Under the pieces are notes generated by a model. That model did not search any database and had not been told where the DNA came from. It saw nothing but the letters and a program-made list of their open reading frames with translations. From Mycobacterium sp. ITM-2016-00317 (GTDB lineage: Bacteria > Actinomycetota > Actinomycetes > Mycobacteriales > Mycobacteriaceae): DNA of 64,000 nucleotides. Positions 40,210-56,898 of this stretch are shown in pieces. The stretch is from positions 4,402,001 through 4,466,000 of the forward strand of contig NZ_CP134399.1 in NCBI RefSeq assembly GCF_002968295.1, written 5' to 3'. Position numbers and translations under genes: made by a program. The first letter of the stretch is position 1. Every line of letters begins with the position of its first letter.

Positions 40210-40221
40210 TCTTCCGCAGAG

Positions 40222-40272
40222 CGAATCGGGCGCGTTCCGCGACACCCAGTGTCGCGAAACGCGCCCGATTCG
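40222..40272. terminator. Strong bidirectional terminator
   Basis: A 24-bp stem with one mismatch: CGAATCGGGCGCGTT (40222-40236) pairs with 40258-40272, then CGCGACAC (40238-40245) with GTGTCGCG (40249-40256), with a 3-base loop. It lies between the convergent fasciclin and acyl-CoA dehydrogenase genes and ends both transcripts. Confidence 0.85.
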
Positions 40273-40286
40273 TTTGGTCCAGCCGG

Positions 40287-41435: not shown

Positions 41436-41463
41436 TTCGTCTTCCTTACTTGGCTTGCTTGGC

Positions 41464-42279
41464 TTACTTGGCCTTCCAGACCGGCTCGCGCTTCTGCGCG
41501 AAGGCCAGCGGTCCTTCCATGGCGTCCTCGGTCTTCAGCAGCGTCGAGAACTCACCGAACGTCTGCTTCCAGAACGGTTCCTCGTCGCCGACCACGCCGT
41601 CGATGGCGCCGTAGGACACCCGCTTGCTGGCGCGTACGGCCAGCGGCGCGTTGCAGGTGATCCGCTCGGCCAGCGCCAGAGCCGCGTCGACGACGGTGCC
41701 GTCGGGCACGACCTGGTTGATCAGGCCCCAGCGCAGCGCGTCGGCGGAGCTGATCGGCTCACCGGTGTAGATCAGCTCCAGCGCCACCTTGCGCGGCAGC
41801 TGCTCGACGATGCGGAAGACCCCGCCCGCTCCGGCGATCAGGCCGCGTTTCACTTCGGGCAGACCGAATTTCGCGCGTTCCTCGGCGACCACCAGATCGC
41901 TGGCCAGGGCCAGCTCGGTGCCGCCGCCCAGCGCGGTGCCGTTGACCGCCGCGATGGTCGGCTTGTCGATGAAGTGCCGCACGTAGCCGGCGAAGCCCCA
42001 CTCCGAATGCTCGGGATGGAACAGGTTCTCGCCGCGCGAGATCGCCTTGAGATCCGCTCCGGCACAGAAGGATTTGTCGCCGGCGCCGGTCAGGATCACC
42101 GCGCGGACCTCGGGGTCCTCCTGCGCGGCCTGCAGCGCGTCGCCGACGGCCGTGCTCACCGACGCGTTGATCGCGTTGCGGGCCTCGGGACGGTTGATAG
42201 TGATGACCAGTACGTCATTGTTCCTGCCCCGACGCTCGGTCAGAGCGCCGGGGGCGGTTTCGGTCGCGGTTTCGGTCAC
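41464..42279 (-). CDS. echA: Enoyl-CoA hydratase
   Basis: A 271-residue crotonase. NRPEARNAINASVSTAVGDAL, GDKSFCAGADLKAISRGEN and NGTALGGGTELALASDLVVAEE are the CoA/oxyanion-hole motifs; FGLPEVKRGLIAGAGGVFRI holds the second acidic residue (Glu of LPEVK) expected for hydratases, while the first Glu is in GGGTELA. Both are present, so hydratase activity is likely. The GTG start overlaps the fadA stop (GTGA). The N-terminal TETATETAPGALTERRG is a short hydrophilic lead. Confidence 0.92.
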   Translation of the reverse strand: MTETATETAPGALTERRGRNNDVLVITINRPEARNAINASVSTAVGDALQAAQEDPEVRAVILTGAGDKSFCAGADLKAISRGENLFHPEHSEWGFAGYVRHFIDKPTIAAVNGTALGGGTELALASDLVVAEERAKFGLPEVKRGLIAGAGGVFRIVEQLPRKVALELIYTGEPISSADALRWGLINQVVPDGTVVDAALALAERITCNAPLAVRASKRVSYGAIDGVVGDEEPFWKQTFGEFSTLLKTEDAMEGPLAFAQKREPVWKAK

Positions 42280-43433
42280 AGCAGTTCCAGGATGGTCGCG
42301 TTGGCCTGGCCGCCGCCCTCGCACATCGTCTGCAGGCCGTACTGAATGTTGTTGTCCCGCATGTGGTAGAGCAGCGTGGTCAGGATGCGCGCACCCGAGC
42401 CGCCGAGCGGATGGCCCAGTGCGATCGCGCCGCCGTTGGGGTTCAGCTTGGTCTCGTCCGCGCCGATGTCCTTGAGCCAGGCCATCGGAACCGGGGCGAA
42501 CGCCTCGTTGACCTCGAACACGCCGATCTGGTCCAGGCTCAGGCCGGACTTCTTCAGCGCCTTCTGGGTGGCCGGGATCGGGGCGGTCAGCATGATCACC
42601 GGGTCGGCGCCTGCGAGCACCGCGGTGTGCACCTTGGCCAGCGGCTTGAGGCCCAGCTCGTTGGCCTTCTCGGCCGACATCAGCAGCAGTGCGGCCGAGC
42701 CGTCGGAGATCTGGCTGGAGTTACCGGCGTGGATCACGCCGTCCTCCTTGAACGCCGGCTTGATCTTGGCCATCGACTCGACGGTGCCGCCGCGGCGGAT
42801 GCCGCCGTCTTCGAGCACGACGGTGTCGTTGCCGTCGGCGTCCTTGGTCGTGATGCCGACGATCTGGTCCTTGAACGCACCGGAATCCTGTGCGGCAGCT
42901 GCCTTCTCATGCGAGCGCAGCGAGAACTCGTCGAGCTGGGTGCGGCTCAGGCCCCACTGCTCGGCGATCATCTCGGCGCCGACGCCCTGGTTGGGGGTCT
43001 TGTCGTAACGAGCCTTGAACGACTCGCCGTAGGGGTTTCCGCCGTTGGCCAGCGAGGAGCCCATCGGGGTGCGCGACATCGACTCGACACCGCCGGCGAC
43101 GACGACGTCGTAGTGACCGGCGATCACCCCGGCGACGGCGAAGTGCAGCGACTGCTGGCTGGAGCCACACTGACGGTCCACGGTGACACCGGGAACGGTC
43201 TCGGGCCAACCGGCGGACAGCACCGCGGTGCGGGCGATGTCGAGCGCCTGCTCACCGGCCTGCATGACGCAGCCCCAGATCACGTCGTCGACGAGCGCGG
43301 GATCCACCCCGGCCCGCTCCACCAGACCGTTGAGGACCTGGGCCGACAACTCGGCCGGATGGATTCCCGACAACGCACCGTTTCGCTTTCCGACTGGAGA
43401 GCGCACTGCCTCGACGATCACGGCTTCAGCCAT
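42276..43433 (-). CDS. fadA: Acetyl-CoA acetyltransferase (thiolase)
   Basis: A 385-residue thiolase. Nucleophile Cys89 in VTVDRQCGSSQQ, His341 in GGAIALGHPLGGSGAR, Cys371 in TMCEGGGQ and NEAFAPVP: the full catalytic set. It resembles the FadA6-type thiolases (Rv3556c is about the same length). ATG 43433 has AAGGAG about 7 bases upstream and a good sigma-A promoter (TTGACC-N17-TACTTT). First gene of the operon and divergent from a FadR-type regulator. With EchA and FadE it covers three of four beta-oxidation steps. Confidence 0.93.
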   Translation of the reverse strand: MAEAVIVEAVRSPVGKRNGALSGIHPAELSAQVLNGLVERAGVDPALVDDVIWGCVMQAGEQALDIARTAVLSAGWPETVPGVTVDRQCGSSQQSLHFAVAGVIAGHYDVVVAGGVESMSRTPMGSSLANGGNPYGESFKARYDKTPNQGVGAEMIAEQWGLSRTQLDEFSLRSHEKAAAAQDSGAFKDQIVGITTKDADGNDTVVLEDGGIRRGGTVESMAKIKPAFKEDGVIHAGNSSQISDGSAALLLMSAEKANELGLKPLAKVHTAVLAGADPVIMLTAPIPATQKALKKSGLSLDQIGVFEVNEAFAPVPMAWLKDIGADETKLNPNGGAIALGHPLGGSGARILTTLLYHMRDNNIQYGLQTMCEGGGQANATILELL

Positions 43434-43468
43434 GGAGATACTCCTTCTTTGGATCGGCTTTACGCACG

Positions 43469-43508
43469 AAAGTAACGAACAAGGTTTACTAGGTCAACCT
43501 ACTGGTTG
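43469..43508 (-). promoter_or_regulatory. fadA promoter and adjoining palindrome
   Basis: Read leftward: -35 TTGACC (complement of 43492-43497), a 17-base spacer, -10 TACTTT (complement of 43469-43474). The palindrome CAACC-TACT-GGTTG (43495-43508) abuts and overlaps the -35, a good position for repression. It does not match the KstR or FadR consensus, so another regulator, or the FCD-type protein next door, may bind. Confidence 0.6.
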
Positions 43509-43585
43509 GCAGGCCTCCGAGCGGGCCGCGACCTGCGCCGACCTCGACCGATCCGGACATCGGGCCTGCACATGGTTTACTGAGT

Positions 43586-43602
43586 TGCACAGCTGGTGTG
43601 CA
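43586..43602. promoter_or_regulatory. Inverted repeat before the FadR-like gene
   Basis: TGCACA (43586-43591) and TGTGCA (43597-43602) with a 5-base spacer, 27-43 bases before the regulator start. GntR/FCD regulators often bind such spaced repeats in their own promoters, so autoregulation is likely (inference). Confidence 0.45.
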
Positions 43603-43628
43603 GCGTAGTCGACCGTCGAGGAGGTGTG

Positions 43629-44420
43629 ATGACCCGTAGCACTCCCCTGGCTCCGATGATCGGGCCGGACGCCGTCGCCTCCCGCGCCGCGGTCCGGTCC
43701 CCCAAGACCGCTGAGCTCGTCGCCGGCACGTTACGCCGGATGGTGGTCGACGGGCAGCTCAAGGACGGCGACTTCCTGCCGAATGAGGCCGAGCTGATGG
43801 CCCACTTCGGTGTCAGCCGCCCGACGCTGCGCGAAGCGGTCCGCGTGCTGGAGTCCGAGCGCCTGGTCGAGGTGCGCCGCGGATCGCGCACCGGTGCGCG
43901 GGTCCGGGTGCCCGGCCCCGAGGTGGTCGCCCGGCCCGCCGGGCTGCTGCTGGAGCTGTCCGGCGCAACGATCGCCGACCTGCTGACCGCGAAGTCGGGT
44001 ATCGAACCGATGGCTGCGCGACTGCTCGCCGAGTCCGGTTCGGACGAGGCGTTCGACGAGCTCGAGCGGATGCTGGAGGAACTCGCCGCCGACGGCCATC
44101 AGTCCAGTCGGCTGGCCGAGACCACCGGGCTGTTCCATCTGCGCGTGGTGCAACTGTCGGGCAACGCGACGCTGAGCATCATCGCGGGCATGCTGCACGA
44201 GATCACGGTCAGGCACACGGCTTTCGTGTTCAACGAGCGCCGGCCGGTATCCAAGGCCGACTACGACACGCTGTTGCGGTCCTACCGCAAGCTGATGCAG
44301 TTCCTGCGCGCGGGCGACGCCGTCGGCGCCGAGACGCACTGGCGCAAGCACCTCGACAAGACGCGCGAGCTGCTGCTCACCGGCCTGGAGAGTGTGCCCG
44401 TCCGCGACGTGATGGGCTAG
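43629..44420 (+). CDS. FadR-type GntR regulator (FCD domain)
   Basis: A 263-residue regulator. Winged HTH: TAELVAGTLRRMVVDGQLKD, LPNEAELMAHFGVSRPTLRE (recognition helix) and RLVEVRRGSRTGARV; then an all-helical FCD domain with TAKSGIEPMAARLLAESG and TGLFHLRVVQLSGNATLSII, holding the Asp/His metal-ligand region (FHLRVV; ITVRHTAFV). It probably binds an acyl-CoA or carboxylate and represses the divergent fadA-echA-fadE operon. ATG 43629 follows GAGGAGG by 4 bases. Its stop overlaps the convergent DUF3556 gene. Confidence 0.9.
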   Translation: MTRSTPLAPMIGPDAVASRAAVRSPKTAELVAGTLRRMVVDGQLKDGDFLPNEAELMAHFGVSRPTLREAVRVLESERLVEVRRGSRTGARVRVPGPEVVARPAGLLLELSGATIADLLTAKSGIEPMAARLLAESGSDEAFDELERMLEELAADGHQSSRLAETTGLFHLRVVQLSGNATLSIIAGMLHEITVRHTAFVFNERRPVSKADYDTLLRSYRKLMQFLRAGDAVGAETHWRKHLDKTRELLLTGLESVPVRDVMG

Positions 44421-46147
44421 TCGCCCCGCTGCCAGGTGACGTGCGCCGGCACGGTGTCGTCCCACGGCTGGCGGGTCACCATGTCGGCGACCATCACGTA
44501 GCCGCGCTCGAACTCACCGGTGGCGGCGTCCACCAGCCGGTATTCCTGACGCTGCCGATGGATTGGTTGCGCGTCGAGCAGCAGCACCCGCACCTCGCCG
44601 GGTTCGAAGTGGCACCGCTTCTGCAGTGCCGCGATCAACTGCTCGTTGTGCATGTGCCCGTCGCCGAAGTTCCAGCCAATCGCGGTGCTGCAGATCCGTT
44701 CGCCGTCGGTCAGCACGTAGTCGTCCTCGTTCCAGCCTGCCATCGCCCGGTGGGCCAGCGTGAACATCGCGCGGCCGTGGGTGTTGAACGAACGGAACGC
44801 ATACCCCATGTACTGGTAGATCTCGGCGGTCTCCTTGCTGCCGTAGAACTTCTCCATCTGCGCGGCGGGCATGCTCGCGATTGCGACGATGCCGTTGGAG
44901 ATCTTCTCGGCCGCCGACGGTTTCACACACCACAGCGAGGTGTCCCAGTTGCCGGCGTAGTAGCGCATGCCGGGCAGGAAGGACACCTTGCGCGGGAACA
45001 GGTTTCCGATCACGACGGTGCCGGCGACAACCGCGAACAACAGGATCGGCCACGGGCTCTGCAGATCCGAGAGCCCGACGCCGGCGTTGCCGACGAACAG
45101 CGCCAGCACGCTGAACATCATGAAGACGTTCCACTCCAGCGGCACGCCCATCGGGATCGCCGACAGGATGCCGAAGTGGAAGATCAGCATCACCGTCGCC
45201 GCGATCGCGGTGGCCCAGCCGCCATGGGAGAAGAACAGTGCCAGTGGCACGAGCATCTCGATCGCCGTCGAAAAGTGCGCCAGCACGCGCGACGCGCGGC
45301 CGGGCCGCAGGTCGTCCGGGAAGTGCTCGAAGAACTTCCGTTTGATCGACCGCGGCCGGATGATCGGGTTGTTGCTCATCATCGTGGAGATGACGAACGG
45401 GAAGTGCTTGTTCAGCTTGGACGTGGCCGCACCCACCCAGATCACCAGGCACACGAGCTTGGCTGCGATGACGATGTCGGCGCCGCTGAACAGGAAGCAC
45501 ACCGCCAGCGCGCCGTACACCTCGCCGCGGGCGGCCAGGAACAGCACCTTGTCGCGCAGCCCGGCCACCACCAGCAGGCCGACGACGGCGGCGGTCTGCC
45601 AGACCGGCAGCACGCCGACCTCGGATCCGAGTTCGGGGATGGGCCCCGTGCCGTCGGAGAACAACGCGATCACCAGGACCACCAGCAGCGCGGCGTAGAG
45701 CACCACGTCGACCGGGGTGCGGGTGTCCCCGGCGGTCAGGGGCACCCGGTTCGGCCACGGTGGCAGCCGAATCGTCTTGGGCCGCAACCAGTACAGGATC
45801 GACCCCATCGGCGGGAAGAACCGGTTGTTCAGCGGGCCGAAGCCGCAGCCGAGGCCGACGATCTCGAACAGCATCGTGTAGAGGACGACCTTCTGGTACA
45901 CGATCGGCTCGTGGTACCAGGCGGCCACGTCGGTGAAGCCGTCTATGCCGCTGGTGGTCAGGACGATCAGCCAGGCGCCCAAGATGTAGAGCAGGATCTT
46001 GACCACGTAGAACAGGTGCATCACCACCGGCGTGCCGAAGCCGACCTCGGCCCAGTGGCGCGCCATGGGCACGATCCGCTCGGCCCGGGTGCCCTTGCTC
46101 CATTCCGCGTAGTCGACGACGGGCGCGTCCTGCTTCAGAAACCCCAT
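44417..46147 (-). CDS. DUF3556 polytopic membrane protein
   Basis: A 576-residue protein I assign to DUF3556 (mycobacterial transmembrane family) from its N-terminus MGFLKQDAPVVDYAEWSKGT and overall layout. About nine helices lie between residues 45 and 400, and a cytoplasmic part of about 170 residues follows with KISNGIVAIASMPAAQMEKFY and a strongly conserved RSFNTHGRAMFTLAHRAM. No known catalytic motif. The ATG at 46147 lies 6 bases after a TAGTCT -10, suggesting a leaderless mRNA, and a KstR-like operator overlaps that promoter, so I infer a role in sterol or lipid metabolism or transport. Confidence 0.75.
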   Translation of the reverse strand: MGFLKQDAPVVDYAEWSKGTRAERIVPMARHWAEVGFGTPVVMHLFYVVKILLYILGAWLIVLTTSGIDGFTDVAAWYHEPIVYQKVVLYTMLFEIVGLGCGFGPLNNRFFPPMGSILYWLRPKTIRLPPWPNRVPLTAGDTRTPVDVVLYAALLVVLVIALFSDGTGPIPELGSEVGVLPVWQTAAVVGLLVVAGLRDKVLFLAARGEVYGALAVCFLFSGADIVIAAKLVCLVIWVGAATSKLNKHFPFVISTMMSNNPIIRPRSIKRKFFEHFPDDLRPGRASRVLAHFSTAIEMLVPLALFFSHGGWATAIAATVMLIFHFGILSAIPMGVPLEWNVFMMFSVLALFVGNAGVGLSDLQSPWPILLFAVVAGTVVIGNLFPRKVSFLPGMRYYAGNWDTSLWCVKPSAAEKISNGIVAIASMPAAQMEKFYGSKETAEIYQYMGYAFRSFNTHGRAMFTLAHRAMAGWNEDDYVLTDGERICSTAIGWNFGDGHMHNEQLIAALQKRCHFEPGEVRVLLLDAQPIHRQRQEYRLVDAATGEFERGYVMVADMVTRQPWDDTVPAHVTWQRGD

Positions 46148-46153
46148 GCACAC

Positions 46154-46171
46154 AGACTAGAACGTGTTCCA
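46154..46171 (-). promoter_or_regulatory. KstR-type operator over a leaderless -10
   Basis: TAGAACGTGTTCCA (46158-46171) fits the published KstR consensus TNNAACNNGTTNNA at every fixed position. Read leftward, TAGTCT (46159-46154) is a -10 six bases before ATG 46147. Operator and -10 overlap by two bases. KstR represses cholesterol catabolism genes in mycobacteria. Confidence 0.6.
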
Positions 46172-46219
46172 GTTTCGATTCCCGCGAACAGACACAAAAT
46201 CGCCGAGACTATCCAGAAA

Positions 46220-46429
46220 CTAGATCGACCCGCTAACTCCTGGTTGATGGGACTTCTTGATCTCGCTCGCGATCTTCTTACTGATGTCCACTTTCGAGTA
46301 CTCAGCGAACTGCCGGTGTAAGGCCTCTGCCGAGCTCTTGATGTCGGTCGCCGCCACCGCGTGTGTCATTCCAGCGGCCGCAATCAACGACTGCGCGGTT
46401 GCCTTGACTCGGTCAGCAAGTGTAGCCAT
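46220..46429 (-). CDS. Small 69-residue protein, unknown
   Basis: Not recognised. MATLADRVKATAQSLIAAAG begins a helix-prone chain rich in Ala, Lys and Ser (SAEALHRQFAEYSKVDISKK); no cysteine, signal or membrane helix. Basic overall at the C-terminus. ATG 46429 has GGAAGGA about 5 bases upstream and its own -10 (TATTAT at 46456-46451), so it is probably transcribed apart from the signalling operon that ends 143 bases upstream. Its position directly after that operon suggests a functional tie (target or effector), which is an inference. Confidence 0.65.
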   Translation of the reverse strand: MATLADRVKATAQSLIAAAGMTHAVAATDIKSSAEALHRQFAEYSKVDISKKIASEIKKSHQPGVSGSI

Positions 46430-46450
46430 GCGGTTCCTTCCAGTGTGTTA

Positions 46451-46456
46451 ATAATA
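46451..46456 (-). promoter_or_regulatory. -10 element of the 69-residue gene
   Basis: Read leftward TATTAT (complement of 46451-46456), fitting TANNNT, 22 bases before the ATG with a purine-rich ribosome site between. The stretch is distinctly A/T-rich. No clear -35. Confidence 0.45.
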
Positions 46457-46572
46457 AGGCTAGTGACGCCATTTTGAGTTCCATGTTCGTGTGTGTGAAC
46501 CCGGGGCAGTCCCCAACGCGACCCGTTCTCGGGCGCGGCGCTGGCCCTAGGACTTGCGTCCGACGGGGGCGT

Positions 46573-47535
46573 CTAAGGCCTGGGTCCAAGAAGGGTGAAG
46601 GCGATGGCTGCCATCACGACGGTGGCGACGACAGCCACCGCCACTGGCAGATTTTGGTTCTTCTGCGGGGCACTGCCCATTATCGGAGCGTGGACGACCA
46701 TCATCAATCCACCGATTCGTAGACGACTGCCGTCCACAAGTGGCGTACGCTTTCCCGTCGCGGTCTCGATATGTTCGACCAGCCCATCTTTGAAGACAAG
46801 GCTCGAAACTTGGGGAGGGAGCCCCTTCTTAAAGATATGTTCTTCTCCTCCCCCGCCAACGAATATTGGCTGTGCGCCCAGACCGACGTGTGATGTTTCA
46901 TAGGGTGCCCATTCCACTTCGACGCTGGCTTCTCGGGCCATACTCTGGACGAAGTACATCGCCAAGCCCAGTGCTAGTCCCAGCACGGCAATCCCTGTGA
47001 CTCGTCCAGCCAAGCCCGGCAAGAACATCGATGCCAACAAGAAGCCCATACACCCGACGGCACCTCCGATGGCACCTGCGCCGATACCGCGAATTAAGCC
47101 GAGGTTGGGGACCGCTTTGGACAGCATGGCTCCGAGCATCGCTCCCATCAGTGACCATGCCAAGATTCGTAAGGCGTAGAACTTGAGTTCAAAAGAACCG
47201 ACGTCCATGTTGAAAAGTACCTGTGCTGCCGCACCGGAGACGAAACCCGCCAGAGCACTGGCTCCCAGAACCTGCGCTCCGCGACTGGCCGTCAGATCGT
47301 GCCGCCGATACCACTCGCCAGCGGCGAACAACATGAACCCCAGGACACTCGCGAAGGCCGCTGACCACAGACCCATTTCCACCACCAGCCGAAACTGGTT
47401 GACAACGACGTAGTTCTCCTCCCCATCGCCGACCAAAATATCGGCAAGCACTGCTCCGAGCGCACCGCCCACTGTCCCTGCCGTGGCATACAACAGCTGC
47501 TGGTTCGATCTGAGTGCGTTTATGCCATTGGCCAC
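46573..47535 (-). CDS. Polytopic membrane protein with cytoplasmic FHA-like segment
   Basis: A 320-residue protein, last in the vWA-PP2C-kinase operon. Six N-terminal helices (for example TAGTVGGALGAVLADILVG and FASVLGFMLFAAGEW) are followed by about 85 soluble residues (VGLGAQPIFVGGGGEEHIF ... VDGSRLRIGGLMMVVHAP) and a last helix (VAVAVVATVVMAAIAFTLL). The soluble part is beta-rich, and its G-K-R-T-P-L-V-D-G-S-R-L-R-I-G order recalls the end of an FHA domain, which would suit a reader of kinase phosphorylation. The match is weak. Start GTG 47535 is the first start after the upstream gene's stop. Third-position GC is lower than in the core genes. Confidence 0.7.
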   Translation of the reverse strand: MANGINALRSNQQLLYATAGTVGGALGAVLADILVGDGEENYVVVNQFRLVVEMGLWSAAFASVLGFMLFAAGEWYRRHDLTASRGAQVLGASALAGFVSGAAAQVLFNMDVGSFELKFYALRILAWSLMGAMLGAMLSKAVPNLGLIRGIGAGAIGGAVGCMGFLLASMFLPGLAGRVTGIAVLGLALGLAMYFVQSMAREASVEVEWAPYETSHVGLGAQPIFVGGGGEEHIFKKGLPPQVSSLVFKDGLVEHIETATGKRTPLVDGSRLRIGGLMMVVHAPIMGSAPQKNQNLPVAVAVVATVVMAAIAFTLLGPRP

Positions 47536-47569
47536 GAAACCATCCCCGCTTCTTCCTAGATCAGAACTT

Positions 47570-48499
47570 TCAGCAGTGAGCCCCTGGAAAAAACCCCAGG
47601 TGGTCCAGAACCCATGCAGATAACGTATCGAGTTGTGTCGACCCGGTTTGAAACCCGCCATCGGATGCTTGTGCCGCCAAGGCAATCCCGACAGAACCGG
47701 ATTCCGTTTCAACCAAGGCGATTTGGCGCACCAGGTAGGGACCTTCCGGTGAGGGGCCCCAGCCCCCTTTGACGGCGGCATGATTTTTGCCGGCCAGTCC
47801 CCATTGTTGGTTGCCTGCCACGTCGCCCATGTCGTTGATTACGGAATCGCTTCGACTTAGGCACCGTAGTTTGGATGCGAATGTCGCTTGATTAGCCAGG
47901 GACCAGTCGGTTTGCCCAAATGCGGTGAACTCGCTCCGTCTGCGTTCGGACTCCACGATGGTCGAGCTGTCGCCAGCCTCCACGAGGACGGCGCCCACGG
48001 ATGCTGCAGCTTCTTCGGGTTGCCCCAGCTGCGCCCATAGAGCCTCCGCTGCGGCGTTATCGGAGCTCCTGATTGCGGGGTCAACAAAAGGCGCGGCGGC
48101 TTCCTGCGAGTTCCGAAGCGCAGCGATTGCCAGAGGCACCTTGATCGTTGACCATGCCGGCCCCGTCCTCCACGAGCCGAAACTCCGAACTCCGTTGGCA
48201 CTGGCGATGGCAACCCCAACGTCACCGGCTATGTCGCTACTGACCGCTTCGAAACTTCGTTGAAGCTCATCGACGCCGCCAACCGCCACCGATGGTGAAG
48301 CGGCGGTCGTCCCTACGATCGCTTCGGGACGATTTGTATCCGAAGCTTCAACGCTGTGCTCATCGCGCAGTTCTGCGGTGGCCAGGTTTCCGTCAGCGCT
48401 GCAAGAAGTGACTCCCACTGCACACGCCACCGCCATTGCTGCAAAAAAAGCACTGCGCCAAAGATGCGCAGTATTGCTAATAGAGATATACCTCCGCAT
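47570..48499 (-). CDS. Class A beta-lactamase-like lipoprotein
   Basis: A 309-residue exported lipoprotein: signal FFAAMAVACAVGV and lipobox VTSC (Cys33). The serine-hydrolase set of class A beta-lactamases is visible: Ser117-x-x-Lys120 (WSTIKVPL), Ser146-Asp147-Asn148 (SDN) and a KGG motif in HAAVKGGWG. The Omega-loop Glu of true beta-lactamases is not evident, so it may be a penicillin-binding or peptidoglycan-sensing relative (compare mycobacterial LppW-type proteins). ATG 48499 overlaps the kinase end by 23 bases, so it is translated together with the kinase. It may report wall damage to the kinase, an inference. Confidence 0.82.
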   Translation of the reverse strand: MRRYISISNTAHLWRSAFFAAMAVACAVGVTSCSADGNLATAELRDEHSVEASDTNRPEAIVGTTAASPSVAVGGVDELQRSFEAVSSDIAGDVGVAIASANGVRSFGSWRTGPAWSTIKVPLAIAALRNSQEAAAPFVDPAIRSSDNAAAEALWAQLGQPEEAAASVGAVLVEAGDSSTIVESERRRSEFTAFGQTDWSLANQATFASKLRCLSRSDSVINDMGDVAGNQQWGLAGKNHAAVKGGWGPSPEGPYLVRQIALVETESGSVGIALAAQASDGGFQTGSTQLDTLSAWVLDHLGFFPGAHC

Positions 48500-50036
48500 C
48501 TTTACCACCCCAGCATGTAATCCAATCATTCTCGGCAGGAGCAGCACACGTCACCTCGAACAACTGACCACCGGGTGCACAAGATGCCCCAGGAACACTG
48601 TCGCACCGAACCGCCCCAACCACGTCCATGGTGCGCCGCTCCTTAGAGGGCTCGCTGAAGTTGTCCCAATACGCACGGAGGATGTTCTCGGTGAACTTGC
48701 ATGACGTTTTCGGAGTTCCCCGTATGGCTTTCGTGGCCCAGCCTGACCGATTCGTCAGGTGATAGCCACCGGTGCACGACTGTTGGTTGGCGTCAAGCCC
48801 AGGCGCCTCTGGTGGTGGAATCACGTTAGTGGGAGTAGGTGCCGTCGTGGGCATCGGCGCGATGGGAGGAGTACTCCACGCTCGCGTGTACGGAGCTGTT
48901 GGCGTCGCGGAGAGGCTCGGTTCCGAGCCACTCCCTTCGTCAGAAGACGACCCGGGGTTCACCTTGAGACCCACGACCGCCGCACCGAGCACGACAGGAA
49001 CCAGCAGCCAAGCCATCTTCGCGGGCAATCTCGGTGAAGCGGCGGGGGTCGGTTGAGGCGAGTGGGGCTGGGTGACCGTTATAGCCGGGGAACTCCGTCG
49101 ATGCACCGCAGGAACTGGCGCCGTCGGCGCAACCACCGGGGCCGGCGGGACCGAAGCGGGCGGCGGCGGATTCACTGGCGCCGCCTTCCATGCCTGCTCC
49201 AATGCTGAATCCCAGCTGGACAAGGTCGGTCGATCGGTTGCGGGCCGGGTCAATGTGTCGCCAATGACCTGACGCAAGCTCGGGTGGACCGAGGCAGGCA
49301 GCCTTGCGCGGCTGGTGGCGTCCTGGCTACCGACTATCAATCTCAATGCCAGAAGTCCCAGTTTGTAACGGTCCGACGAGGTTGTCGCCTTTCTCTCGCC
49401 GGCGGGAACCTCCCAACCCGGCGTTTCCAACTGAGTGGTCAACGACACGCCGTTGACACGCATGGCATCACAGTCGATGAAATAGATCTCCGGGCGGCTG
49501 GACAAAGCAAAGAGGAGATTCTTGGGCGATAGATCGCCGACACAGATGCCGTGACCGTGCAGAAACGTCAGGGCTGAGACCAAACTGCGCAGCAATCCGT
49601 ACCGCTGACGATCGGAAACAACCTGTCCTCCAAAGCTTCTCGCAAGTACATGCGGTTCGTTGAGCAAGTGTTGGAACTCGGCGGCAATCGTTGACGGACC
49701 CTTGACTGTCCAAAACGTGGTGAAGAACTCGTCGGGGATACTCGGCATCACGAAGCCCTTGGCCTTGCCGTTGTCCTCCACTACTCGGCATGGCCACGCC
49801 GCGATGCTGATGAGTCGCGCCCCTTCACCGTACGGAAGCGCCTCCAGGAAGGCTGGCATTGCCTTGAGGGCATTCACGTCAAGTGCGGCTAATGCTGCAG
49901 GCTTGTATTCCTTGTACACCATCGATTTGGCGAAAGGAATGCTCACCTGCGGGGCTCTATAAACGACACCTTGGCCGCCCTGGCCTATCTTGACCAGCGT
50001 CGACGAAATCCTTCTGAGTTCGATGGGCTCAGTCAC
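48477..50036 (-). CDS. Membrane Ser/Thr kinase-like protein with outer Cys-rich domain
   Basis: 519 residues. Kinase-like domain 1-285: Gly loop IGQGGQGVVY (17-26), Lys42 (MVYKEYKP), catalytic loop CVGDLSPKNLLF with Asp168 and Asn173 (no HRD His, Lys at 172), metal motif DCD (188-190) in place of DFG. Then a Pro-rich linker, one helix (341-359) and an outer domain of about 160 residues with at least six cysteines (SCTGG, SCKF, RCDS, SCAP, VTCAA, ITCWG). All core catalytic residues are kept, so activity is plausible. Upstream lies the PP2C gene. The design is like the PASTA-type sensors but with a different outer domain. Confidence 0.88.
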   Translation of the reverse strand: MTEPIELRRISSTLVKIGQGGQGVVYRAPQVSIPFAKSMVYKEYKPAALAALDVNALKAMPAFLEALPYGEGARLISIAAWPCRVVEDNGKAKGFVMPSIPDEFFTTFWTVKGPSTIAAEFQHLLNEPHVLARSFGGQVVSDRQRYGLLRSLVSALTFLHGHGICVGDLSPKNLLFALSSRPEIYFIDCDAMRVNGVSLTTQLETPGWEVPAGERKATTSSDRYKLGLLALRLIVGSQDATSRARLPASVHPSLRQVIGDTLTRPATDRPTLSSWDSALEQAWKAAPVNPPPPASVPPAPVVAPTAPVPAVHRRSSPAITVTQPHSPQPTPAASPRLPAKMAWLLVPVVLGAAVVGLKVNPGSSSDEGSGSEPSLSATPTAPYTRAWSTPPIAPMPTTAPTPTNVIPPPEAPGLDANQQSCTGGYHLTNRSGWATKAIRGTPKTSCKFTENILRAYWDNFSEPSKERRTMDVVGAVRCDSVPGASCAPGGQLFEVTCAAPAENDWITCWGGKDAEVYLY

Positions 50037-50093
50037 TTATAGACGCCTTACGCAACGTCAATAGCCCCCAAATCTGCCGATGCCAAGTCTTTA

Positions 50094-51311
50094 TCACTTC
50101 GAACCAGGCGTACGCGGACGGATCGCCACCAGTGTGCGATCGTCGTCGAAGGTCTCACGACTGAAATCCACCGCGTGAGCGAACTCGATGAGCGAGGGCG
50201 CGGCGGCCCCGAACAGCTCCCTGAAGAGATTCCCGACCCCCCCTTGTCCACCTCCGAGCGGATCACCGATCCCATCGGTACCGAGAAGCAGCACGTCGCC
50301 ATGTCCAAACTCCACAATCGAAGGCTCAATGCGGGAGGGCACTCGCGGCAGACCTGAGACCGCCGAGGATGAAATACCGCCCTCCCCAACTGTTTTGCCG
50401 TCGAGTACGGGCCTAAACTCGCCGTCATGGAGCAGCCACGCACCGGAATCGCCGACTCCGATCACGAAGGCTCTATAGGCTCCGGAGTCCACCTCCTCCA
50501 CTACTGCACAGGTCATGGTGGTGGCTAATTCGTTCTCGGCCAAACCCGGGTCGGGCTCTGGGGTCTTGAAGACAACCTGTGCCCGCTCCGTCAATGCCCA
50601 TGCCGTACTCTTGACTAACGCCTCCCAGTCCGTCGCTTCGGTCGCCGTGGGAACTTGGGAGAGCAACCACTGTGCCGCATAGTTGACCACGGCGCTCGAC
50701 CCGAGATGTGACTGAGCAGCCGCAGACACCCCATCAGCAACGATAGCCACAATTCGACCGTCCTGCATTAGATGAATCGCAAAGTCGTCCTGACGTGGCG
50801 AACCGTTGTACCTGTGGAAATGTCCACGCAGCGACGCTCCCCACACCGTCATCGCATTAGTTGACCACCCATCAACAATAGTGTCGGGTCGAAAGGGCAA
50901 CGACCGGAACGCTTCTCCTATCGGGGTCGCCTCAACATCGGGTGAGGCGGAACCAATTATCAACTGCGGCACCCGAACCGGCCCTGAAACCTCCGAGACA
51001 ACAGCTCGCCGAACGCCCTCGGATTGGGTTTCCGACGCCTCGCGATCGTTTGGTTCGAGCTCTCCGTCGATGGGAGCAACAGTCCCGACCGAAATAGCGA
51101 CGTCCGGAACCGAATGCCAACCTGCTTCTGAGGGTCGCGGCACCCCGTTAATCCCGAGCACTCTGTGTGATTGCTCCGAATCCAGCAAGATCTCTACAGC
51201 GAACTCGTCAGACGCATTACCCGCTGCGGTGGGCAAGCTCTCGTCGTCAGCGCCAGTCACCTTTTGCGACTGTGACCGCTTGCCCCATCGACGTTTTGGC
51301 GTACCAGCCAT
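50094..51311 (-). CDS. PP2C-family protein phosphatase
   Basis: A 405-residue protein. Residues 1-150 are low-homology and charged; a PPM/PP2C domain fills 155-398. Metal-binding motifs: RQDDFAIH (173-180), VADGVSAAAQSHLGS (191-205), GVGDSGAWLL, LLGTDGIGDP (Asp346) and FDDDRTLVAI (Asp391). This is a Mg/Mn-dependent Ser/Thr phosphatase, the natural opponent of the kinase encoded next. It is 12 bases from the vWA gene upstream and 57 bases from the kinase downstream, all leftward. Cytoplasmic; no helix or signal. Confidence 0.9.
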   Translation of the reverse strand: MAGTPKRRWGKRSQSQKVTGADDESLPTAAGNASDEFAVEILLDSEQSHRVLGINGVPRPSEAGWHSVPDVAISVGTVAPIDGELEPNDREASETQSEGVRRAVVSEVSGPVRVPQLIIGSASPDVEATPIGEAFRSLPFRPDTIVDGWSTNAMTVWGASLRGHFHRYNGSPRQDDFAIHLMQDGRIVAIVADGVSAAAQSHLGSSAVVNYAAQWLLSQVPTATEATDWEALVKSTAWALTERAQVVFKTPEPDPGLAENELATTMTCAVVEEVDSGAYRAFVIGVGDSGAWLLHDGEFRPVLDGKTVGEGGISSSAVSGLPRVPSRIEPSIVEFGHGDVLLLGTDGIGDPLGGGQGGVGNLFRELFGAAAPSLIEFAHAVDFSRETFDDDRTLVAIRPRTPGSK

Positions 51312-51323
51312 AGCCGTTTACCG

Positions 51324-51989
51324 CTACAGGATGTCGACAGCCAGCGAGAAACCTTCCGGCTTCTCCATTTGCAGCTCGGCAGCCCCTGACGCCAGCGCCT
51401 GGCCGGAACTGATCACCGATTGCGTTAAAGAGGTGATGAATTCGCTGATCGCCGCGCCTGTATCGACGCCCTTGGCCGCGATAAACGCATATTCTGGTTT
51501 AGTGGCGATTTCTTTCACGGTCGCGGCGTCTGCCTCACCGATTCCGAAGGCTAGAATGTTGGGGCGACCGTGCTGCGCCAGAAGATTTGATCGCGCAGTC
51601 TGCCAATCTTCGCCTGAGTTCGGCTGACCATCGGTCAGGAAAAACACCGCAGGCCGGTTCACGGCATACCCTAAAGATTTAAGTTTGGGAATGTCCTGAT
51701 TGACACGTGAAGTGAGTTCATCAAACGCTGCAGAATATGAAGTCATCCCTCTCGCCTGCAGCGTCGGCATCGCAGGAAGCTCACGCAAATCACTAGGCAC
51801 AAGGTAGGTGTGTGCAGTGTCGGAGAAACCCACAACCGAAAAACGCACCTTAGCGGCGGCGAACGACTCCTTTTGTAGCGAGTCTTGAAGTGTTACCAGC
51901 CCCTCGTTGAGTTCTGAGATATTCGGAGTCATCGAACCCGATTCGTCGGCGACGAAATACACCGGAAGCACCGTGCCCTGTGGTTCCAC
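51324..51989 (-). CDS. vWA-domain protein (TerY-like)
   Basis: A 221-residue single von Willebrand A domain. The metal-dependent adhesion site is complete: DxSxS at 15-19 (ADESGSM), Thr83 (GMTSYSAAF) and Asp120 (FFLTDGQPNSGEDW). It closely follows the TerY pattern, including VYFVADESGSM and FLTDGQPNS. TerY proteins occur in a three-gene set with a PP2C phosphatase and a kinase (TerY-P triad; Anantharaman, Iyer and Aravind), which is exactly what follows. First gene of the operon, ATG 51989. The gene and its neighbours have more A/T at third positions than the flanks. Confidence 0.9.
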   Translation of the reverse strand: MEPQGTVLPVYFVADESGSMTPNISELNEGLVTLQDSLQKESFAAAKVRFSVVGFSDTAHTYLVPSDLRELPAMPTLQARGMTSYSAAFDELTSRVNQDIPKLKSLGYAVNRPAVFFLTDGQPNSGEDWQTARSNLLAQHGRPNILAFGIGEADAATVKEIATKPEYAFIAAKGVDTGAAISEFITSLTQSVISSGQALASGAAELQMEKPEGFSLAVDIL

Positions 51990-52103
51990 CCTTATGTCCC
52001 CTTCGCTGCGTCAGCTGCTGGCCTCCCCCCGCGGGTAGACCATTGGATTCAACCACAGACGCGCGCTACAGAAGCAGGTCCCGAAAATTTGCCAGCGCTG
52101 AGA

Positions 52104-52625
52104 CTAGGCGTCCTGTTTGGCGGGCGGGCGGTAGAAGATCACCAGCTGGCCGATGCCGCCGGCCAGGCCGAGCACGACGGCGATGAGCAGGCCCCACCAG
52201 CCGTGCAGCAGGTCGTAGAAGGCGCTGCCGGAGAACAGCAGGTAGTCGAGGCTGAGCTTGCCCGCGCCGATCGTGGCGATGCCGACCGCCGAGGCCGCGA
52301 GCACGAGGTTGTACTCCCAGCCCTCCTTGACGATGAAGAACCCGTTGGCCCGGTGCACGGTCCAGGCCGCGACGAGCATCAACGCGACGAAGCCGGCTGC
52401 CGGGACCGGGGTCAGCAGGCCCAGCGCCAGCCCGATGCCCGCGGCCATCTCGGTGCTCGCGGCGATCCGGGCGTGGAACATGCCCGGCCGCATCCCCATG
52501 CTGTCGAACCAGCCGGCGGTGCCTTTCAGTCCGCCCTTGCCGAAGAACTTGTTGTAACCGTGTGCGGCCATCGTCAGACCGAGGACGACTCGCAGGATCA
52601 GGACTCCGACGTCATAGGCACTCAT
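52104..52625 (-). CDS. DoxX-family membrane protein
   Basis: A 173-residue four-helix protein: GVLILRVVLGLTMAAHGYNKFFGKGG is the DoxX start, ASTEMAAGIGLALGLLTPVPA the second helix pair, then NLVLAASAVGIATIG. Many homologues carry the HGYNKFF motif in this place. ATG 52625; the longer frame upstream is rejected since no start or ribosome site fits it. Second DoxX protein of the window, unlike the one at 14859. It may be involved in redox or thiol balance in the membrane. It ends 114 bases from the vWA start. Confidence 0.85.
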   Translation of the reverse strand: MSAYDVGVLILRVVLGLTMAAHGYNKFFGKGGLKGTAGWFDSMGMRPGMFHARIAASTEMAAGIGLALGLLTPVPAAGFVALMLVAAWTVHRANGFFIVKEGWEYNLVLAASAVGIATIGAGKLSLDYLLFSGSAFYDLLHGWWGLLIAVVLGLAGGIGQLVIFYRPPAKQDA

Positions 52626-52671
52626 GTAACAGAACTTAGAACATCTGTCACGTCGCTGCCCAGCCCCCGTC

Positions 52672-54111
52672 CTACTCCGCCGGCACCCAGTTGCCGTGGA
52701 AACCCGCCGGCACCCGGTGCGGTAATCGGACCGCGGCGACGTCGTCGAGGGTCTGTGCGTCCAGGATCGCCAGCTCGCTGCGATCGGTGGCACGGTCGTA
52801 CACGTAACCCATCAGCACACCGTCGTCCTCGCCGGCGTCGGGTGCCGACGGGTGGAAGACGAACTCACCGACGGTCTTTTCGTTCCCGAAGGACCGGGAC
52901 ATCGAACCGGATCCGGTGAAGTCGTGCTTGAGCAGGGTGTCGGCGCAGGATCCGCCTCCGGTGACCGTCGGGGCGTAGCCGTAGCGGTGCGGCCGGCCCA
53001 CCACGCGTTCGTCGACGCGCGGGAACTCTTGCCCCCGGTCGTCGATCCGGGACTCCCGCACCTTGCCGTCTGCCAGATCGACGGTCCACCTATCCAGCGT
53101 CGGCATGCCCTCGTTGGGCCCGAGACGGTCGGTGGCGAACATCTTCTCGTGCCGCACGACGTCGAGCACGACGGTGTCGCCGTCGTCGAACGCGTTCATC
53201 GGGTGGAACACGTAGCAGGGCTCGATCTCGAACCAGCGGACGTCGGCGTTGCCGCCCTCGCGGGGCATGACGCCGATTCGGGCCGGGTACCGCGGGTTCC
53301 ACGAGTACGGGAACGCCGGGTCGCCGGACCGCCGGCCCGGGCGGCGCGCGGCGACCGGGTCGGGGATGCGCACCCGGCCGATCAGCGCGGACAACACCAG
53401 GCGCGCGGGCAGTTGCAGCCAGCGCGGCACACCGACCGCGGCGGCCCGCCGCGCGTCGAAGGTGACCGGAAGGTCGTAGAACACCACATGGCGCTCGGTC
53501 AGCGAGAAGTCGTGCATCATCGGGCTGCCCGTGACCTCGACGTCGATGGTGCGTCTGGCCCGTCCGTCTGTCCCGATCACCGAGTACTGCACCGTGTTTC
53601 CGTTGAGCAGGCAGTAGGACACCGCATGCAGTTCGCCGGTCTGCGGGTCGCGCTTGGGGTGTGCGGTGTAACCGCCGGTCAGGGTCCCGTCGAAATCGCA
53701 GACGCCGACGGTCTCCAGTTCGTCGGTCAGCTCGTACTGCGCGACGCCGGATTCGATCAGCGCGAGCGTCTTGCCCGCATGCCCGATCACGTTGGTGTTG
53801 GCGCCGATCGGGGTGAGGCCGAAGTCCCCGCGGGGCGGGCTCTCCCCCAATGCCTCGGCCACGACGGGACTGCGCACCCAGCGGTTGCGGTACCACTGCG
53901 CTCTTCCGTCCCGGAGGCGGATGCCGTGCACCATGCCGTCGCCGGTGAACCAGTGGTAGAGCTCGGGGTCGACCTCGGCGACCGGATTGGGCCCGTTGCG
54001 CAGGTAACGGCCGTCCAGATAGTCGGGGATGCGGCCCCGCACGTCGAGGTCGGTGAGCGTGTACTCGTCCACCAACGGTGCGAACGCGCCTTCGAGGTAC
54101 TGGTTGGCCAT
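52672..54111 (-). CDS. Carotenoid (apocarotenoid) cleavage oxygenase
   Basis: A 479-residue RPE65-family dioxygenase that cleaves conjugated double bonds in carotenoids or stilbenes using non-haem Fe(II). The four iron-binding histidines are His151 (YTAHPK), His200 (MMHDFS), His303 (VFHPMN) and His472 (GFHGNW), all in the usual motifs. The N-terminus GRYLRNGPNPVAEVDPELYHWFTGDGM is the family signature. Length is typical and similar to M. tuberculosis Rv0654. Monocistronic between DoxX and the acyltransferase pseudogene. Natural substrate unknown. Confidence 0.94.
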   Translation of the reverse strand: MANQYLEGAFAPLVDEYTLTDLDVRGRIPDYLDGRYLRNGPNPVAEVDPELYHWFTGDGMVHGIRLRDGRAQWYRNRWVRSPVVAEALGESPPRGDFGLTPIGANTNVIGHAGKTLALIESGVAQYELTDELETVGVCDFDGTLTGGYTAHPKRDPQTGELHAVSYCLLNGNTVQYSVIGTDGRARRTIDVEVTGSPMMHDFSLTERHVVFYDLPVTFDARRAAAVGVPRWLQLPARLVLSALIGRVRIPDPVAARRPGRRSGDPAFPYSWNPRYPARIGVMPREGGNADVRWFEIEPCYVFHPMNAFDDGDTVVLDVVRHEKMFATDRLGPNEGMPTLDRWTVDLADGKVRESRIDDRGQEFPRVDERVVGRPHRYGYAPTVTGGGSCADTLLKHDFTGSGSMSRSFGNEKTVGEFVFHPSAPDAGEDDGVLMGYVYDRATDRSELAILDAQTLDDVAAVRLPHRVPAGFHGNWVPAE

Positions 54112-54156
54112 TGCGGTCCGCTCCCCTGCATCGTCCGTGCACCCTGTATAGCACCA

Positions 54157-55418
54157 CTACGGGGGCGAACGTAGCTCCCAGGTGAGCCGGTCCAGGTAGG
54201 CGTCCAGGTCACCGATCACCGAATCCGCGGCGTGCACGCTGACCGCGACCGCACCGCCGATGCCGTGCACGCCGTGTGTCAGGCCCATCATCGGCGACAA
54301 CGACGGGAAGCCCGCGGTGAGCACCACGGGGTCGCCGCCGAACGTCAGATCCGCCGGCCCCCGGTTGACGCTGGAGACCACGGTGTTGCCGGTGACCTCC
54401 GCCGACCGCACGTTCGGATCGAATTGCGCGACGCCCCAGCGCAACAGCGGCGCGGGCAGGGCGGCCAGTGCGGCGGCCTCGGCGCGCAGCGCCGGATGTA
54501 CGGCCCGCCGCCGGCGCCGGCGCAGATCGGCGGCGATCGCCGCACTGCGCTCCGGTGCGGGCAGTTCCGGGTACAGCTCCACGCTGACATTGCCGTAGTG
54601 GTTGCGCGCCTGCCTCGGTGCCGTCCGCGCCATCGGAACCTCGGCGCCCAGCCGTGCCGGATCGTCACCGTGCGCACGCAGATGCCCGGCGAGCGCTGCC
54701 GACACCGCCGCGAGCACCCCGACGGTCACCGTCGCCGCGCCGAACTGCTCGCGGCGGCACACCACGGTCCGCAGGTGCCGCGGGCCGGCAGCGTGTTGGT
54801 GCGCAGCGCCGGACGTGGAAGCGCCTGTGGCGGAACGAGGCCCGCATCGGTGTCGCGGACCAGTCGGCGGTGCGCGCGCCCGGCGGCTGACGCACGCCAC
54901 GGCAGGGCCGCAGCCCGCACCGGCGTCGCGGTCACCGTAGGCACCGCGCCGTCGCGGCCGAACAGATGCGCCGCCAGCGCCGAGGCCAGCACACCGTCGG
55001 CGAGGGCATGAGAGATCTGCAGCACGGCAACCGAACCCGGCCCCGCACCGGGGATTTCCCCGACATCGGGGAACACATGCAGGCGCCAGGTGGCGTCGCG
55101 GGCGTCGAGCGACTCGTCGGTCAACCCCGCAACGGTGGTCAGGCATCCCTGCCACGTCGGCGGGTCGACCTCGTGCACCACGATCTGGTCGGTGGTCACC
55201 TCGCGGTGCACCCAGACCGGATAGGTCCAGAACGCGGTGTCGTCGACGCGCATCCCGAAGTCGGCACAGGCCCGCGCCCGGTCGCGCACCGCGGCGAGAG
55301 CGGCCTCGAGGCTGTCCGGGCGCCCGCCGAACGCGTAGAGCAAGAACTGGTCGCTGGGGACCGAGGCCGACATCCAATAGGTCTGGGCGTCGACCGCTGC
55401 GAGCCGGCGCACCGTCAT
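54157..55418 (-). pseudogene. WS/DGAT-type acyltransferase, frameshifted
   Basis: Would be a wax ester synthase/diacylglycerol acyltransferase-like protein of about 420 residues. It begins MTVRRLAAVDAQTYWMSASV, with FRPxWVHREV-like text (TYPVWVHREVTTDQIVVHEV) and the active-site region ISHALADG, where the first His of HHxxxDG is Ser. The frame breaks near 54780: after LRTNTLPARG the match continues in another frame with HLRTVVCRREQFGAATVTVG and later NHYGNVSVELYP, VVSSVNRGPADLTFGG and GLTHGVHGIGGAVAV, ending at TAG 54157-54159. One missing base explains it. Either decay or a sequencing error. Confidence 0.8.
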
Positions 55419-55442
55419 GGGCCCCAGGCTAGGCTGGCCCGC

Positions 55443-56252
55443 ATGCCGACGCTGCCGGGGCCCTCCGCCACCGGGGCGGCGCTGGTCACCGGCGCGTCGT
55501 CGGGGATCGGTGAGCACATCGCCCGCGAGTTCGTCCGGCGTGGACACCAGGTGATCCTGGTGGCCCGTCGCGCCGACCGCCTCCGCGAGCTCGCCGCGGA
55601 GCTCGGCCCTGGCGCACATGTGCTGGCCGCCGACCTGGCCCGGCCCGCTGACCGGGCGGCGCTGCCGGACCGGGTGGCCGAACTCGGGCTGACGGTGGAT
55701 GTGCTGGTCAACAACGCCGGCATGGCGAACGTCGGCGGGGTCGCCGGCATGGACGTGGACGCCGAGCTGCGGCTGATCGAGGTCGACGTCGCCGCGGTGG
55801 TCGATCTGTGCACCCGTTTCGTGCCCGGCATGGTCGCCCGCGGCCGGGGCGCGGTGCTCAATGTCGCATCGGTCGGCGCGTTCGGGCCGGTGCCGTGGCA
55901 GGCGTCCTACGGAGCGGCGAAAGCGTTCGTGCTGTCCTACACCGAGGCGATGGCCGAGGAGTTGAAGGGCACCGGCGTCGCCGCCGCGGTCGTGTGTCCG
56001 GGCCCGGTGCGGACCGGATTCGGCGAAGCCGCAGGCATTCCCGACGCCGAGGCGGAGAAGCTGCTGCCGAAGTTCTTGTGGGAGCAGCCCGACGACGTCG
56101 CCCGGACCGCACTCGACGGTCTGGCCGGCGGTAGACGGGTGATCGTGCCCGGCCGAGCGAACCGCGTCGCCGCGGCGCTGAACCGGCTCGCACCACGCTG
56201 GATCCTGTTGCCGATGCTGGGCCGCGGCCACCCGGGCCGCGACCGCCGCTGA
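55443..56252 (+). CDS. SDR-family oxidoreductase
   Basis: A 269-residue classical SDR: TGASSGIGEHIAREF, an NADP-type Arg after the second strand (LVARRADRLRELA), NNAGMANVGG, the Ser in VLNVASVGAF and YGAAK (Tyr-x-x-x-Lys) with KAFVLSYTEAMAEEL, then VVCPGPVRTGF. The pattern is that of the 17-beta/3-ketoacyl reductase-like (HSD17B12/DltE) group. The last 50 residues are basic (RRVIVPGRANRVAAAL). Start ATG 55443, 25 bases from the divergent acyltransferase gene. Convergent with the mce operon end. Confidence 0.88.
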   Translation: MPTLPGPSATGAALVTGASSGIGEHIAREFVRRGHQVILVARRADRLRELAAELGPGAHVLAADLARPADRAALPDRVAELGLTVDVLVNNAGMANVGGVAGMDVDAELRLIEVDVAAVVDLCTRFVPGMVARGRGAVLNVASVGAFGPVPWQASYGAAKAFVLSYTEAMAEELKGTGVAAAVVCPGPVRTGFGEAAGIPDAEAEKLLPKFLWEQPDDVARTALDGLAGGRRVIVPGRANRVAAALNRLAPRWILLPMLGRGHPGRDRR

Positions 56253-56256
56253 GCGG

Positions 56257-56898
56257 CTACACCGGGTCGAACTTGGAGATCAGCCAGCGGTCGCCGTCCT
56301 TCTCCAACGTGACCCGCACGCTCGACGCCGTGTCGGTGGGCGCGGCCGCACCAACGGACACCGTCTGGTTCACGAACAGCAGCACCACGGCCTCGCCGGG
56401 AGTGGCCGACACCGACGCCGCTGCCGGCACCGAGGCGACCGCGGAGATCTGCTGCTCCTTTGCGCCGGGAATCACCACGTCGTCGGTCAGTGACGTGTAG
56501 GCCTCCCGGAAATCGCCGGTCAGCAGATCGCGCGCCGCACCGAGCTGCTCCTCGACCTTGTCGGGGGTGTAGGACAGCAGCGCGATCGTGCTGTCGCGGG
56601 CCGCCTGCACGGAGGTCATCGCGGCGATCTCGTTGTTGCGCACCGAGTTGTCGCGCCACTTCAGATATCCCGCGCCCATCGCGAGCACCAGGGCCAGTGC
56701 CGGCAGCAGCCCGAACGCGACCACCCGCGACCACGCCATCGGCTTCTTGGGCGGCGCGACTGCGTCGGTGGACTCGTCGGCGGCCTCGGTGGACTCAGTG
56801 ACCTCGGTGGACTCGTCGGGCTCGGTGACGTCAACTGTGTCGTCGACGATCTCGCTCTTCTCGTCGCCGGGCACGTTGCGTTTCACATCTTCACTCAC
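56257..56898 (-). CDS. Mce-associated membrane protein (Mam-like)
   Basis: A 213-residue protein. Acidic, Thr/Glu/Ser-rich cytoplasmic start (about 50 residues), one helix (SRVVAFGLLPALALVLAMGAGY), then an outer domain with AARDSTIALLSYTPDKVEEQLGAARDLLTGDF, the hallmark of Mce-associated proteins. These stabilise Mce complexes (for example LucA/OmamA). Last gene of the mce operon, overlapping the previous one by 4 bases. The two Mam genes here share layout, suggesting tandem duplication. Confidence 0.88.
   Translation of the reverse strand: MSEDVKRNVPGDEKSEIVDDTVDVTEPDESTEVTESTEAADESTDAVAPPKKPMAWSRVVAFGLLPALALVLAMGAGYLKWRDNSVRNNEIAAMTSVQAARDSTIALLSYTPDKVEEQLGAARDLLTGDFREAYTSLTDDVVIPGAKEQQISAVASVPAAASVSATPGEAVVLLFVNQTVSVGAAAPTDTASSVRVTLEKDGDRWLISKFDPV

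Follow-up and report, generated by a model that had tools for sequence, protein, structure and literature searches.

The closest described relative of the system reported here, a five-gene operon in a 64,000-nucleotide stretch of the Mycobacterium sp. ITM-2016-00317 genome (contig NZ_CP134399.1, positions 4,402,001 to 4,466,000; hereafter the window), is the TerY-P triad (Anantharaman 2012, as cited in PMC11090510), in which a vWA protein, a PP2C phosphatase and a kinase are encoded together. PMC11090510 describes the TerY-P kinase with a C-terminal zinc ribbon and places OB-fused variants in defence; the triad is also treated in PMC4978471. Mycobacterial Hanks-type kinases resemble the window kinase in having a cytosolic kinase domain, one transmembrane (TM) segment and an outer domain, and some share with it the outer domain called WITC, whereas the window kinase belongs to the TerY-P class and is encoded together with vWA and PP2C. 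Expansions of pknF and pknH in non-tuberculous mycobacteria are reported in PMC6917791, whose main text does not mention beta-lactamase. No description of mycobacterial kinase outer domains being paired with wall enzymes was found in the literature searched, where subscription journals are thinly covered, and the novelty of such a pairing is provisional. What most mycobacterial transmembrane kinases sense is, to our knowledge, an open question. The E. coli proteins YegL, YegK (PphC) and YegI (PmkA) form a similar set of vWA, PP2C and atypical kinase, for which we know of no WITC outer domain or wall enzyme.

In the window, genes for a vWA protein, a PP2C phosphatase, a kinase, a class A beta-lactamase-like lipoprotein and a seven-TM (7-TM) membrane protein lie head to tail on the minus strand over positions 46573-51989 (Table 1), the packed leftward set of five described in the original prediction. 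The spacing is operon-like, gaps of 12 bp and 57 bp from the vWA end being followed by a 23-bp overlap of the kinase and lipoprotein genes and then by a gap of 34 bp. On balance, we take the operon to be a transferred envelope-to-cytosol phospho-signalling module, in which a receptor of wall state drives a TerY-P-like phospho-switch.

The vWA protein has complete metal-ion-dependent adhesion site (MIDAS) residues (DESGS, T and D, by eye); its assignment as a TerY-like protein is putative, by PF00092 and the MIDAS, and a sequence search gave it no PDB relative. The catalytic aspartates of the PP2C are present (by eye). The kinase is atypical by its sub-threshold Pkinase match; residues K42, D168, N173 and D188 are invariant in 50 of 50 aligned sequences, residues 1-290 are modelled by AlphaFold2 with a predicted local distance difference test (pLDDT) score of 87-98 by block of ten, and Foldseek retrieves kinases only with this model (best IRAK4, 2e-10). 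Neither a zinc ribbon nor an OB fold was found at its C-terminus, Pfam giving Pkinase only; in their place are a Pro-rich linker, a TM helix and WITC, an outer domain of 100 residues. With such a tail, the set may work like TerY-P yet fails one defining feature, so that the TerY-P identity proposed for the trio holds for vWA, PP2C and kinase occurring together and not for the kinase tail. Association with a TerD gene is also missing. The predicted absence of TerD and TerC nearby was borne out for TerD, PF02342 having no match anywhere in the window genome (6.06 Mb, one contig; TerC and other Ter genes were not searched for), yet in relatives the membrane protein carries a fused TerD-fold domain. 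The operon further differs from TerY-P in having no DNA/RNA processing genes, and in the addition of a wall-type enzyme and the 7-TM protein.

WITC and the lipoprotein form a genomic pair. Among 28 kinase loci, several of which share a genome, the lipoprotein family is found within 3.3 kb at all 16 with WITC, and at none of the 12 without it (Fisher 3e-8). Loci L039 and L065, whose contigs end within the kinase, and L007, L008 and L016, the same places as L055, L059 and L043, were dropped from this comparison (L and G numbers denote loci and genomes); L006 came via the membrane-protein search, not the kinase search, and L044 has no kinase of this family. Counted by genome, 15 of the 22 that bear the kinase have the lipoprotein family no more than 10 kb from a kinase match, against 0.09 genomes expected from its genome-wide density, without phylogenetic correction. 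The membrane protein accompanies the triad in six of the 22 (G000, G385, G278, G363, G032 and G400) and in M. senegalense. Both added genes co-occur with the triad in other genomes, and the outcome named beforehand as refuting the original prediction, a lack of such conserved co-occurrence, was not obtained.

The pairing extends to loci of another kind. At 40 further WITC loci, corresponding to every second place of the WITC match list below the loci already examined (known places omitted, weak tail unsampled; L177, L192 and L206 cut by contig ends), a gene of the lipoprotein family lies no more than 64 bp away in 26, in orientations that vary and with WITC mostly on a kinase of a different class. 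A 1.5-kb-flank WITC set (L139-L168; lipoprotein in 15 of 30) includes known loci and was left out of the counts. As controls, 43 kinase loci with 1.5-kb flanks were monitored, 13 from the window genome and 30 of 258 matches in ten other genomes, the genomes being hand-picked and the 30 loci among the best-scoring matches rather than a random draw. Two have WITC, and the same two have the lipoprotein; the other 41 lack all four enzymes looked for (lipoprotein family or Beta-lactamase2, GH3, Amidase_3 and M14). Because the lipoprotein also pairs with ordinary kinases, it is tied to the kinase outer domain rather than to the triad, and the proposal that the triad has been joined to a cell-surface branch, backed by the co-occurrence, has to be amended in this respect. 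The linkage might alternatively reflect shared mobility of enzyme and kinase, not function, as triad clusters look mobile; we consider this very improbable, since linkage follows the type of outer domain and not the type of kinase, and persists with varying gene orientation in loci devoid of the triad.

WITC is present in 117 of 396 genomes of the genus (E 1e-8), mostly on Hanks-type kinases (56 of 71 WITC open reading frames (ORFs) in 70 loci). It also occurs on proteins with no detected kinase domain (L129, L189, L193), and in L042 is carried by a second, Hanks-like kinase beside a divergent triad. Its six Cys are invariant in a ten-sequence family alignment, and its AlphaFold2 pLDDT is 88-97 by block; it corresponds to no Pfam domain, and the alignment has no PDB sequence relative at E 1.

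The Beta-lactamase2 match of the lipoprotein is above the family cut-off; sequence search gave weak PDB matches only. The window copy features STIK, SDN and KGGWGP motifs and a VTSC lipobox (by eye). All 16 cluster copies keep STxK, SDN and KGGWGP, and all 47 WITC-linked copies examined (an 88-residue piece in L208 excluded) keep STxK, SDN and KGG; 43 of the 47 have a hydrophobic N-terminal segment. Class A beta-lactamases share the SxxK and SDN motifs and a K[TS]G-like motif, and have in addition an acidic residue, Glu166. No conserved residue of this type is found in the family, the stretch from SDN to KGG holding no invariant Asp or Glu in 16 sequences, and the window protein also differs in being membrane anchored and kinase-linked. 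Deacylation may accordingly be slow; the lipoprotein is more probably a penicillin-binding or DD-peptidase-like protein than a fast beta-lactamase. Both the motifs and the missing acidic residue would suit an island for beta-lactam sensing or resistance, with the lipoprotein as a sensor that binds penicillin, or as a weak beta-lactamase, and with a drug response switched on by the kinase. We regard this as unlikely, as it leaves unexplained the glycosidase, amidase and peptidase found in neighbouring or equivalent places, and lipoprotein homologues exist that have no WITC neighbour.

GH3 and M14 enzymes follow other outer domains. A GH3 gene is located 3-22 bp away in six of the seven kinase loci with the WVPQ outer domain, and in none of the other 21; the WVPQ-linked GH3 proteins keep the KH(F)PGHG-DSH signature. 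M14 peptidase genes reside in three of the 40 sampled WITC loci (L198, L200, L207), each immediately next to a kinase whose outer domain is of a third type, VGTCDEGG...GAYVN.VYL; this domain is SH3b-like by eye and has no Pfam match. Amidase_3 genes were found in seven of the 40 loci, and near the kinase in three of the 22 genomes. The Beta-lactamase2, GH3, Amidase_3 and M14 families act on peptidoglycan. In L189 (512-2458, minus strand) a single ORF of 648 residues joins a kinase domain, a TM segment and a GH3 (NagZ-type) domain; the HRD aspartate of its kinase is replaced (by eye), and it adjoins WVPQ and WITC outer-domain proteins. No other single observation hints as strongly as this fusion at joint action of kinase and wall enzyme. 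Long proteins without Pfam match carry a WVPQ-type domain in L129 (2500-4473, minus strand) and L134 (3452-4759, minus strand), and are flanked by the lipoprotein on one side and by a WITC TM protein on the other.

We lean towards the view that mycobacterial wall-state receptors are two-piece plug-in units, in which the outer domain type of a TM kinase (WITC, WVPQ, VGTCDEGG) largely predicts the peptidoglycan-acting partner (beta-lactamase-like, NagZ-like GH3, M14 peptidase). In the window, one such unit would be carried by a TerY-P-like kinase, together with vWA, PP2C and a 7-TM/TerD output protein of FHA-like character. The same linkage data, and the family motifs kept in the partner enzymes, would fit control in the opposite direction, the kinase acting through WITC on the wall enzyme so that the wall is remodelled on a cytosolic signal read by vWA and PP2C. 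Such inside-out control seems improbable; alone, it leaves unexplained both the kinase-TM-GH3 fusion, with its seemingly altered catalytic loop, and the FHA-like membrane protein.

Several observations weigh against plug-in receptors and the module built on them. The remaining 14 of the 40 WITC loci have GH3 instead of the lipoprotein (5) or none of the four enzymes in the stretch (9), hence the outer domain does not fix its partner absolutely; one of the 26 lipoprotein matches is the L208 piece, and related genomes are not independent events. WVPQ is found without GH3 in L059, a triad cluster, and in L129 and L134, outside triad clusters. The lipoprotein family is widespread (200 of 396 genomes), eight of 14 hand-picked lipoprotein loci outside triad clusters do not adjoin a WITC protein (six do), and only 15 of the 47 linked copies have a lipobox-like motif. 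Triads with another outer domain (G030, G321, G358) have no wall enzyme, which indicates that the triad does not need it. Similarly, none of the 13 loci outside the genus with the triad kinase family has a lipoprotein, GH3 or Amidase_3 neighbour, and the envelope branch thus looks like an addition within mycobacteria. Finally, the 7-TM protein matches FHA only weakly, and by eye the motifs usual for phosphothreonine binding cannot be made out.

The 7-TM protein may hold a cytosolic FHA-like domain. Many of its relatives carry a further, C-terminal domain with the fold of TerD/SCP2 proteins (3ibz, 2kxt). Unlike these proteins, the domain is predicted to be outside the membrane and escapes Pfam (PF02342 does not match relatives P0002 and P0015); it is absent from the window copy. 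PDB sequence searches gave no FHA or TerD relative. In L015 the 7-TM protein is accompanied by a VGTCDEGG domain and an M14 gene. Relatives in Verrucomicrobia-type or other metagenome-assembled genome loci (L011, L014), with no triad in the stretch examined, are followed by a DUF3298-type gene (by Pfam in L014, by eye in L011). Genes for FHA-ABC transporters lie within or beside triad clusters (L037, 15579-17942, and L042, 13306-16011, both minus strand), and are possibly another phospho-reader output.

The operon resides in an island with a GC content of 0.591, against 0.669 and 0.702 in the 6-kb flanks, in agreement with the lower GC noted earlier. The DUF3556 gene on one side was matched in 110 of 118 genomes; DoxX is found within 1.5 kb of it in 25 of the 29 best loci besides the window, where the operon splits the pair. 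Two of the other four loci have a carotenoid-oxygenase-type gene (named by eye) instead of DoxX, and two have neither. The insertion site is therefore empty in most related loci checked. None of the five flanking genes of the window was found in eight 12-20 kb loci of cluster-carrying relatives, the closest named relatives of the operon proteins are from M. porcinum and M. peregrinum, and the kinase family occurs in few genomes of the genus (22 of 396, E 1e-10). The empty site, the different flanks and the sparse distribution fit the predicted transfer. Carriage by a phage or plasmid was considered and rejected, as the queries used retrieved no carrier from the viral, phage and plasmid collections. 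Among 50,697 phage records none matches the kinase; the membrane protein has no relative in viral_contigs and one distant match, in a cyanobacterium, in the plasmid search, and the island has no match in plasmid DNA.

Sparse distribution and insertion could also mark an anti-phage or conflict system of TerY-P-like kind, comparable to kinase-OB modules, the envelope parts then serving to sense infection. PMC11090510 reports stand-alone defence by TerY-P-like modules in which the kinase is OB-fused, and the window kinase has partial matches to several PADLOC kinase defence models (best 1.3e-8). The STK_OB model covers kinase residues 148-218 only (E 0.01), however, and neither the OB fold that marks the kinase of STK-OB defence nor a zinc ribbon was found; of the other four operon proteins none is matched by a PADLOC model, and Pfam detects no nuclease among the operon genes. 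The recurrent partners are wall-type enzymes, and the queries used retrieved no copy from the viral, phage and plasmid collections. We hold a defence role to be quite unlikely, and the phage response suggested earlier found no backing in these searches.

Table 1. Features of the operon and of the island that contains it (window positions)
Feature	Position	Strand	Details
vWA protein	51324..51989	-	221 aa; no signal or TM seen; PF00092 1.7e-9
PP2C phosphatase	50094..51311	-	405 aa; PF13672 (PP2C_2) 6.7e-20
Kinase gene	48477..50036	-	519 aa
Kinase domain	49165..50036	-	PF00069 1.2e-5 (below cut-off); AlphaFold2; Foldseek
Single TM segment of kinase	48957..49013	-	after Pro-rich linker; read by eye
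WITC outer domain of kinase	48480..48794	-	alignment, hidden Markov model 3.9e-45, AlphaFold2
Class A beta-lactamase-like lipoprotein	47570..48499	-	309 aa; PF13354 (Beta-lactamase2) 1.4e-5
7-TM membrane protein	46573..47535	-	320 aa; homologues and model of relative P0002
Possible FHA-like soluble part of 7-TM protein	46681..46941	-	between TM6 and TM7, predicted cytosolic
69-aa ORF	46220..46429	-	probably outside the system
Low-GC inserted island	46200..52050	.	between DUF3556 (44417-46153) and DoxX (52104-52793) genes

The lipoprotein is taken to start at an ATG, and the membrane protein at a GTG 3' of the lipoprotein stop; the program ORF list starts them at 48547 and 47781, respectively. 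Pfam gives no match for the membrane protein or the 69-aa ORF. The latter was seen in the window genome and the M. peregrinum locus only (251 loci compared, many not reaching that position), and by its occurrence in two lineages does not look like a conserved part of the system. Its supposed separate promoter was not sustained, a promoter scan giving 2 sites where shuffles gave 1.7 on average, not above chance. A terminator-like hairpin lies directly 3' of the kinase stop (48451-48473, minus strand), inside the lipoprotein signal region; it is not kept in three relatives, and a terminator role was dropped. Rfam has no match in 40000-58000, and no tRNA is found in the window.

In the module that we favour, WITC and the membrane-anchored beta-lactamase-like serine enzyme would be in physical contact, forming one receptor outside the membrane. 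Its ligand would be the peptidoglycan stem, the receptor reporting the state of the stems, or beta-lactam attack on them. The signal would run from outside to inside and alter the activity of the cytosolic kinase domain. By phosphotransfer, the kinase would then modify its putative substrates, the vWA protein and a partner that the FHA-like part of the 7-TM protein reads or binds, and the PP2C would reset the switch. Output would occur at the membrane via the 7-TM protein, in relatives via its outer TerD-fold domain.

The rule linking outer domain to wall enzyme gives a testable candidate ligand source for a class of mycobacterial kinases. TerY-P-like switches, linked until now with metal and DNA/RNA conflict systems, would be extended to the cell envelope, and the island suggests a previously unrecognised way for mycobacteria to monitor their cell wall.

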